Below are positions 49,255 to 52,589 of a stretch of DNA of 64,000 nt, piece after piece (position 1 is the first letter of the stretch; every line of letters begins with the position of its first letter). The DNA comes from an uncultured Chloroflexota bacterium. GTDB lineage: Bacteria; Chloroflexota; Dehalococcoidia; Lucifugimonadales; CAJXCD01. Below the pieces are notes generated by a model. That model was given only the letters and a program-made list of their open reading frames with translations, searched no databases and was not told the DNA's origin. The stretch covers positions 1 through 64,000 of the forward strand of contig CAJXCD010000008.1 of assembly GCA_913051545.1 (NCBI GenBank), read 5' to 3'. The position numbers and the translations under genes were made by a program.

Positions 49255-51039
<1,785 letters not shown>

Positions 51040-51080: not shown

Positions 51081-51818
51081 TCAAATAGTTCTACCCCATG
51101 CAGGACCAACGTGTATACCACATTCTTTGGGAATACCTTTTTCCCACCACCATCTTCCTGCTCTGTCTGATTCACCAGATTCAGTAGGTCTTGTACACGG
51201 AGCGCAACCTATACTCGTATATCCCTCATCATAAAGATGGTTGTACGGAACATCATTTGAATTGATATATTCCCAGACTTGATCATAAGACCAATCAGCT
51301 AAAGGATTTATCTTGGTAAGCCCAGGATGAGAAGAATCTATTTGCAATTTTGGTGTCTGGGCCCTTGTCTCAACTTGAGTACGCCTCAGACCAGTCATCC
51401 ATACATCAATCCCCTCCATTTCTAATGCGTGGTTAATCGGGTTCACTTTTCGCACACTACAGCAGAGTAATCTCAAAGATACACTTCTGTAAAAAGGATT
51501 ACTGCCATGCTTGCTTACCATCTGAGAAATTTCTTCTGAGTCAGGGAAATACACTGAAATACGGATTCCATATCGCTCTCTAACTTTGTCAATTAAATCG
51601 TATGTCTGCTGAGGAAGCCTACCGGTGTCAATGGTGAATACTTTCACATTCTTATCGATACGAATAGCCATATCAATTATCACCATAGAATCTGCCTGTA
51701 AGCTAGTGGATATGGCTACCTTTGAACCGTATGTTGATATAGCCCACTTTACCACTTCTTGTGCATTCTTATCTTCCAAATCTATAGCTAGTTTTCTGAC
51801 CTCGTCCTGAGTAGTCAT
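51081..51818 (-). CDS. cysH: Adenylylsulfate/PAPS reductase, iron-sulfur type
   Basis: Reduces activated sulfate to sulfite using thioredoxin. The 245-residue protein has the PP-loop-like STSLQADSM and the [4Fe-4S] Cys set C119-C120 (CCSVRKV) and C205xxC208 (CAPC). The catalytic Cys233 lies in the C-terminal KECGIH. Cys pairs of this sort mark APS reductases and Bacillus-type enzymes that accept APS and PAPS. AGAGGT lies six bases before the ATG. A transcription terminator sits only 36 bases upstream. Confidence 0.95.
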   Translation of the reverse strand: MTTQDEVRKLAIDLEDKNAQEVVKWAISTYGSKVAISTSLQADSMVIIDMAIRIDKNVKVFTIDTGRLPQQTYDLIDKVRERYGIRISVYFPDSEEISQMVSKHGSNPFYRSVSLRLLCCSVRKVNPINHALEMEGIDVWMTGLRRTQVETRAQTPKLQIDSSHPGLTKINPLADWSYDQVWEYINSNDVPYNHLYDEGYTSIGCAPCTRPTESGESDRAGRWWWEKGIPKECGIHVGPAWGRTI

Positions 51819-51854
51819 TTTACCTCTGTGATTTTTGGTGTTCGTTTTTCTCTC

Positions 51855-51888
51855 AAAAAAAACCCCCGGACTTTCAGTCCGGGGGTTT
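51855..51888 (-). terminator. Strong intrinsic terminator inside the cysH leader
   Basis: The arm 51876-51888 (AGTCCGGGGGTTT) and the arm 51860-51872 form a perfect 13-bp GC-rich stem with a 3-base loop. On the minus strand a U-run follows (eight T from the A-run at 51855-51862). It lies after the promoter at 52034-52062 and 36 bases before the cysH start, so it can switch cysH on or off. It may also end ATP synthase transcripts. Confidence 0.9.
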
Positions 51889-51916
51889 AGATATTACCGT
51901 AATTTTATCTTAAAAT

Positions 51917-52000
51917 TTACACTGCAATCTTAGGTAAGTCAGTACAGTCAGCGACTGAGCTGCCTAGATCCCCTGAGAAATTTATACAGGGACAAACCAT
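51917..52000 (-). CDS. 27-codon Cys-containing leader ORF of cysH (candidate)
   Basis: An ATG at 52000 opens a 27-residue frame that begins MVCPCINFSGD and ends with TAA at 51917-51919. Cys codons occur at positions 3, 5 and 19. GGA lies seven bases before the ATG, so the ribosome site is weak. The ORF ends 28 bases before the terminator stem. Its place between promoter and terminator of a sulfur-assimilation operon makes it a candidate leader peptide. No homology is recognised and the frame could be chance. Confidence 0.35.
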   Translation of the reverse strand: MVCPCINFSGDLGSSVADCTDLPKIAV

Positions 52001-52033
52001 CAATAAATCCATATACTTTAAATTCATAAATAA

Positions 52034-52062
52034 AGTGTACTTTTATGTCCGTATCGTGTCAA
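52034..52062 (-). promoter_or_regulatory. Promoter of the cysH leader
   Basis: Minus-strand TTGACA (52057-52062), a 17-base spacer and TACACT (52034-52039). Transcription would start near 52027, giving a leader of about 210 bases. Confidence 0.6.
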
Positions 52063-52160: not shown

Positions 52161-52589
52161 TTAAGTCTGTATGGTAGGAGTATTTGATCTTTTACGTCTA
52201 GCAACCTTGATACGAATTCTAGACCTTCTGAGAGATGCTAGCGCTTTCTGTAAGTCTACATCACTAACAGCTGACTCCATCTCCTCTTGGGCAACCTTGA
52301 ATGCTTCCTCAGCACGCTCTATATCAATTTCTTCACTGCGCTCAGCTGTATCCGCCAGAACAGTAATCGTATTCCCTAAAACTTCCATAAAACCACCACT
52401 AATGGCTATATATCTTTCTTCACCACCAGTGATCACGCGTAACTCACCAGATTTGAGTGAACTCAGGAGCGGAGCATGCCTTGGCAATATAGTTAATTCC
52501 CCTATTTCACCAGGCACAACCACTCCCTCCACCAATTCTGAAAACAACAACCTCTCGGCTGTTACAATATCCAACTGAATAGTCGACAT
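52161..52589 (-). CDS. atpC: ATP synthase F1 epsilon subunit
   Basis: Central-stalk subunit of 142 residues. It has the N-terminal beta-sandwich (QLDIVTAERLLFSELVEGVVVPGEIGELTILPRHAPLL) and a C-terminal helical hairpin (about 90-135, ending in a basic tail RIRIKVARRKRS). It couples rotor and F1 and may inhibit ATP hydrolysis. It follows atpD by 22 bases and is the last gene of the operon. Confidence 0.96.
   Translation of the reverse strand: MSTIQLDIVTAERLLFSELVEGVVVPGEIGELTILPRHAPLLSSLKSGELRVITGGEERYIAISGGFMEVLGNTITVLADTAERSEEIDIERAEEAFKVAQEEMESAVSDVDLQKALASLRRSRIRIKVARRKRSNTPTIQT

Follow-up and report, generated by a model that had tools for sequence, protein, structure and literature searches.

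A candidate cysteine-responsive transcription attenuator upstream of cysH in an order of Chloroflexota

Introduction

Classical attenuators of the trp, his and leu operons combine a leader peptide in which the regulated amino acid is abundant with alternative antiterminator and terminator structures. The leader described here would differ from them in that the amino acid is cysteine, and in that its ORF is probably translated without a Shine-Dalgarno lead. According to the accounts of Canestrari et al. (2020, Mol Microbiol) in PMC9031893 and PMC13236596, mycobacteria carry leaderless polycysteine ORFs at which cysteine is proposed to be sensed through the speed of the ribosome at the Cys codons; a (probably) leaderless Cys-rich ORF before sulfur-assimilation genes, and this proposed mode of sensing, are common to both systems. 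The mycobacterial leaders have no conserved terminator (PMC1262725) and their mode of action is called translation attenuation, whereas the present leader, from another lineage, has an intrinsic terminator and a candidate antiterminator. The uORFC-8-2 motif, found before cysS in Rhodobacterales, contains tandem Cys codons in a short ORF, structures and an intrinsic terminator, and readthrough at cysteine shortage was proposed for it in the part of PMC8632094 that describes it. In that description, the motif differs from the present leader by its target, cysteinyl-tRNA synthetase rather than cysH, by its Cys codons, usually at positions 14-15, and by its host group, the Alphaproteobacteria; it makes no mention of leaderless translation.

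A literature search with partial journal coverage gave no publication that describes cysteine attenuators in Chloroflexi. The leader before cysH combines features of known cysteine attenuators so far described separately. If it acts as proposed, cysteine-responsive attenuation would extend beyond the groups where we found it described, in a form that joins a probably leaderless ORF, as in mycobacteria, to an intrinsic-terminator switch, as before cysS in Rhodobacterales.

Results

The cysH leader and its surroundings

We analysed a 64,000-nucleotide stretch of an uncultured Chloroflexota genome (the window). The cysH leader lies on its minus strand, between atpC (end at 52161) and cysH (start at 51818). 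The cysH gene (51081..51818, minus strand) encodes an APS/PAPS reductase, as indicated by Pfam PF01507 and NCBIfam NF002537 and TIGR02055, and 3' of it, in the same direction, lies a sat-cysC fusion encoding an ATP sulfurylase / APS kinase (49255..51018, minus strand; Pfam and NCBIfam); both identities agree with a first-pass annotation made from the letters of the window. The cysH-sat-cysC gene order is repeated in several related families, and the fusion is probably in one operon with cysH.

Sequence scanning recovered the promoter of that annotation on the minus strand (52034..52062): TTGACA (52062-52057), a 17-nt spacer and TACACT (52039-52034), with a spacing to the leader start codon as in relatives. 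By itself, the consensus scan does not exceed chance, with 4 matches against 5.7 expected in shuffles. Transcription is predicted to start at about 52027, at or within 1-2 bases of an ATG located 6 nt 3' of the -10 box. This ATG opens a 36-codon frame, MNLKYMDLLMVCPCINFSGDLGSSVADCTDLPKIAV (51917..52027, minus strand), with Cys codons 12, 14 and 28, and the position and Cys clustering of this ORF are kept in relatives. The 27-codon ORF originally annotated, MVCPCINFSGDLGSSVADCTDLPKIAV (Cys codons 3, 5 and 19), is the 3' portion of this frame; its frame and Cys codons are present as described, but its start is likely nine codons further upstream, ATG 52027 being the more likely true start to judge from the sequence. 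Because transcription is predicted to start on or beside this ATG, the ORF is probably leaderless, and its start codon would form the 5' end of the transcript. The first two Cys codons (TGT CCC TGT, 51986..51994, minus strand) are the predicted stall site and match the location of the Cys clusters of relatives.

An intrinsic terminator follows (51855..51888, minus strand; sequence scan), at a site that has its equivalent in relatives. Its stem (51888-51860) is perfect, with 13 pairs, 8 of them GC, and a 3-nt loop, and is followed by a run of Ts; cysH starts 41 nt after the end of the stem and about 36 nt after the end of the T run, the latter being the distance first annotated. We looked for a second terminator between atpC and cysH and found none besides this one. 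Leader terminators are rare in this genome: a scan of 1.836 of its 1.856 Mb found one at 10 of the 662 genes that have a long gap upstream.

RNA folding also recovered the small hairpins that had been noted in the leader, including CAGTC-GCT-GACTG (51945..51957, minus strand), which lies within the antiterminator loop and overlaps Cys codon 28. No clear antiterminator had been seen initially; the folds do provide a candidate, AGGGG (51970..51974, minus strand), whose partner is the CCCC of the terminator arm and which occupies the same place as the G-run of relatives, though it is weak in the window copy. Before the 3' arm of the terminator is transcribed, AGGGG and CCCC pair with a folding probability of about 0.7. 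A ribosome that has reached the stop codon would leave AGGGG free and cover just the inner part of the antiterminator. The complete terminator (-23 kcal/mol) outcompetes the antiterminator, so that antitermination would have to be kinetic.

The window copy is among the weakest examples of its leader type and is reduced, with two plus one Cys codons and a weak antiterminator. Taken by itself, its Cys content is not significant: two Cys in seven codons were reached by 17% of shuffles and are also found in 152 of 554 upstream regions of the same genome. Likewise, its antiterminator pairs no better with its own terminator arm (-9.9 kcal/mol) than with non-cognate arms (-11.9 kcal/mol). Proof from the window alone was therefore given up; the significance of this leader comes from the comparison with relatives. 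Neither its genus nor its family provided a second genome, and the nearest relatives are from other families.

Cys-rich leaders in front of cysH across the order

A search for cysH covered 250 genomes of the order and was positive in 88, with a best identity of 60%. The comparison used 72 upstream regions, of which 70 belong to the order and two are L002 and L003. A short ORF with at least three Cys in seven codons was present in 39 of the 72, nearly all from the same order, against 4.3 expected from dinucleotide shuffles, and at least four Cys in seven codons were found in 21, against 0.26 expected from such shuffles. On the opposite strand of the same 72 regions the corresponding counts were 3 and 0. 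The encoded Cys runs include CTCCCRSGG (L006), CACACC (L016, L026 and L034) and CCCCC (L067 and L069). In a set of 49 leaders, which includes some two-Cys leaders picked by eye, 40 have an in-frame ATG or GTG 4-11 nt 3' of a promoter-like -10 box, a spacing that makes leaderless translation of the ORF probable. An automatic scan placed an intrinsic terminator after the ORF in 43 of 48 leaders; in the Cys leaders of the order, the terminator mostly starts 25-45 nt, typically about 35 nt, past the ORF stop. In other families the same leader is found behind unrelated upstream genes and, because it recurs in these different contexts, we assign it to cysH rather than to the atp operon. Comparison with the cysH leaders of relatives had been suggested as a check in the first-pass annotation; it shows that the Cys-rich ORF, the spacing from -10 box to start codon, the antiterminator (see below) and the terminator are kept in many families.

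The distribution is not uniform. In family f34, which has one of the more similar cysH sequences, no Cys cluster was found at any of the five loci and the leader is missing, and in family f14 (L017) the leader is reduced, much like the window copy. In the rest of the class, at least three Cys were found at 1 of 50 cysH loci, within a long reading frame; a CSCY peptide is present in L102 and L107, from the class outside the order. In the rest of the phylum, at least three Cys were found at 5 of 28 cysH loci, which by eye are apparently out-of-frame readings of upstream genes. The search of viral contigs returned no relative. Within this sample, the Cys attenuator of cysH thus appears essentially confined to this order. 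At several cysH loci outside the order, cysH seems by eye to lie directly behind a sulfite-reductase-like gene.

Pairing between the Cys-proximal segment and the terminator arm

In most leaders, a G-rich segment right after the Cys codons is complementary to the 5' arm of the terminator. The pairs include GAGGGG with CCCCTC, GCAGGGGT with ACCCCTGC (L028 and L031), GGGGTTCGC with GCGAACCCC (L069) and CCGGG with CCCGG (L072). A dinucleotide-shuffle test applied leader by leader gave p < 0.05 in 16 of 43; since G-runs survive shuffling, we used a cognate/non-cognate pairing test over 17 family or genus groups in its place. The segment prefers its own terminator arm over the arms of other families by a mean difference of -3.5 kcal/mol (Wilcoxon p = 0.0002).

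We also folded the leaders with a ribosome in place, its footprint being set by a rule of thumb. When the ribosome was placed on the Cys codons and the 3' arm was still missing from the transcript, upstream pairing of the terminator arm had a probability above 0.5 in 36 of 43 leaders; a ribosome on the stop codon lowered this pairing. The complete terminator is more stable than the antiterminator in almost all leaders, and the switch would thus have to act during transcription. Most leaders show no clear separate protector stem.

Proposed mechanism and alternative explanations

All together, we interpret the leader with good confidence as an attenuator of transcription that works through the ribosome, and which would sense charged cysteinyl-tRNA and control the cysH operon. 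Across the order there is a Cys-codon ORF, a terminator precedes the first gene of the operon, and in the group an antiterminator excludes the terminator, weakly so in the window copy; these parts and their conservation are observed directly. Together with the conserved spacing from promoter to start codon, they lend strong support, over many families, to the translated cysteine attenuator first proposed from the window. The case for cysteine attenuation is good for the order as a whole, and for the window copy we judge it probable.

We infer the following order of events. Transcription would begin at or within 1-2 bases of ATG 52027, and the first ribosome would load directly at the transcript's 5' end. 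At low cysteine, this ribosome would wait at TGT-CCC-TGT, AGGGG could then capture the terminator's 5' arm, and RNA polymerase would continue into cysH and sat-cysC. At ample cysteine, the ribosome would proceed to the stop codon and disrupt the antiterminator region, so that the terminator would form 41 nt before cysH. Given the weak antiterminator and the few Cys codons, the response in this genome may be shallow.

Alternatively, the terminator could merely end the atp operon; leakage would then account for cysH expression, and the Cys codons of the window copy would be a relic or a chance occurrence. The position of atpC, with no other terminator before cysH, is compatible with this view, as are the chance-level Cys density, the weak antiterminator and the missing leader of family f34. 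However, a near-consensus promoter with a conserved spacing to the ATG separates atpC from the leader, and other families have the same leader behind unrelated genes, which makes this explanation unlikely.

It is also rather improbable that the ORF is translated and stalls ribosomes but controls cysH translation or the access of Rho, instead of an intrinsic terminator. Such a mode of action has precedents, since the mycobacterial polycysteine leader ORFs before cys operons are without obvious terminators (PMC1262725) and the M. smegmatis case was described as translation attenuation in 2026 (PMC13236596). The lack of a terminator and the translation-level control that mark the mycobacterial class are not what we find: nearly every Cys leader of the order is followed by an intrinsic terminator whose distance from the ORF stop varies little, and the 5' arms of these terminators match the segment following the Cys codons.

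A metabolite-binding riboswitch, of the SAM type or of an unknown class, which had been left as an option by the first-pass annotation, is very improbable as the element controlling the terminator: SAM riboswitches often control sulfur genes and a SAM-IV-like leader exists elsewhere in the genome (34.9 bits, below the family cut-off of 38), but Rfam searches of the cysH leader at gathering and relaxed thresholds returned only weak, mostly terminator-driven matches, none of which reached a gathering score, and no conserved core common to the leaders was seen beyond the Cys codons, the G-run and the terminator. No SAM family of Rfam matched at the cysH leader, in line with the earlier remark that a SAM-I-like core is missing, and neither did the T-box family (RF00230). 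The RF00230 search does detect T-box-like leaders, as seen from a 90.2-bit match before an ileS-like gene of the same genome.

A second polycysteine leader in front of a lipoprotein gene

Cysteine attenuation at cysH gains support from a second leader of this kind in the same genome (contig C12, L145:1317-2963), located before a gene for a 455-aa lipoprotein. It consists of a TTGACA element, a leader peptide ending in MEYSKIYCICCCFKDGTRSMDL and a terminator, GAGACCTCCATCTAGCGAGGTCTT, and its predicted stalled-state fold is the antiterminator even when the full terminator is present. By its sequence and folding, it is a textbook polycysteine attenuator. Relatives of the lipoprotein in other families (75-87% identity) also have polycysteine leaders, up to CCCLCCCLCCCGD (L244); the gene and such a leader occur together at L236-L239, L242-L244, L246 and L247. 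Not all of these leaders appear leaderless.

The genome has two copies of the lipoprotein gene, C12:1596-2960 and C28:689-2035, 79% identical; upstream of the one on C28, 330 nt of sequence show no polycysteine frame. No Pfam family above cut-off and no convincing PDB match were obtained for the lipoprotein, the searches giving weak beta-propeller repeat signals alone.

We tentatively suggest, as a possibility that we hold at somewhat less than even chances, that polycysteine attenuators with intrinsic terminators define a cysteine-starvation regulon in this order, which would join cysH-sat-cysC with a highly conserved secreted lipoprotein. In that case, the lipoprotein would represent a new protein for acquiring sulfur or sparing cysteine. 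The leader may in this way serve as a handle to discover the cysteine regulon of uncultured bacteria from sequence, and it already flags a conserved lipoprotein without known function.

In L240, L241 and L245, which have the same lipoprotein gene, the polycysteine leader is replaced by a conserved short frame, MLIRF(K/E)DDLFHLC..., and a terminator. In L240 and L245 a TTGACA-17-TATA(T/G)T promoter precedes this frame, which starts 7 nt behind it. It had no NCBIfam match, and we take it to resemble the leader peptides of actinobacterial sulfur genes.

Other leaders with terminators in the genome

The T-box-like leader before the ileS-like gene (contig C1, gene at 295045-298245, minus strand) also has a terminator, and its score lies just under the RF00230 cut-off of 93 bits. 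The SAM-IV-like riboswitch, again with a terminator, is located at L212:5077-5185 (contig C7). Both belong to the 10 cases of a leader terminator from the genome scan. Finally, positions 1-364 of contig C15 carry a leader terminator, AAATCCCAACC...GGTTGGGATTT, which may belong to an aromatic amino acid attenuator; the gene behind it may encode a DAHP synthase.
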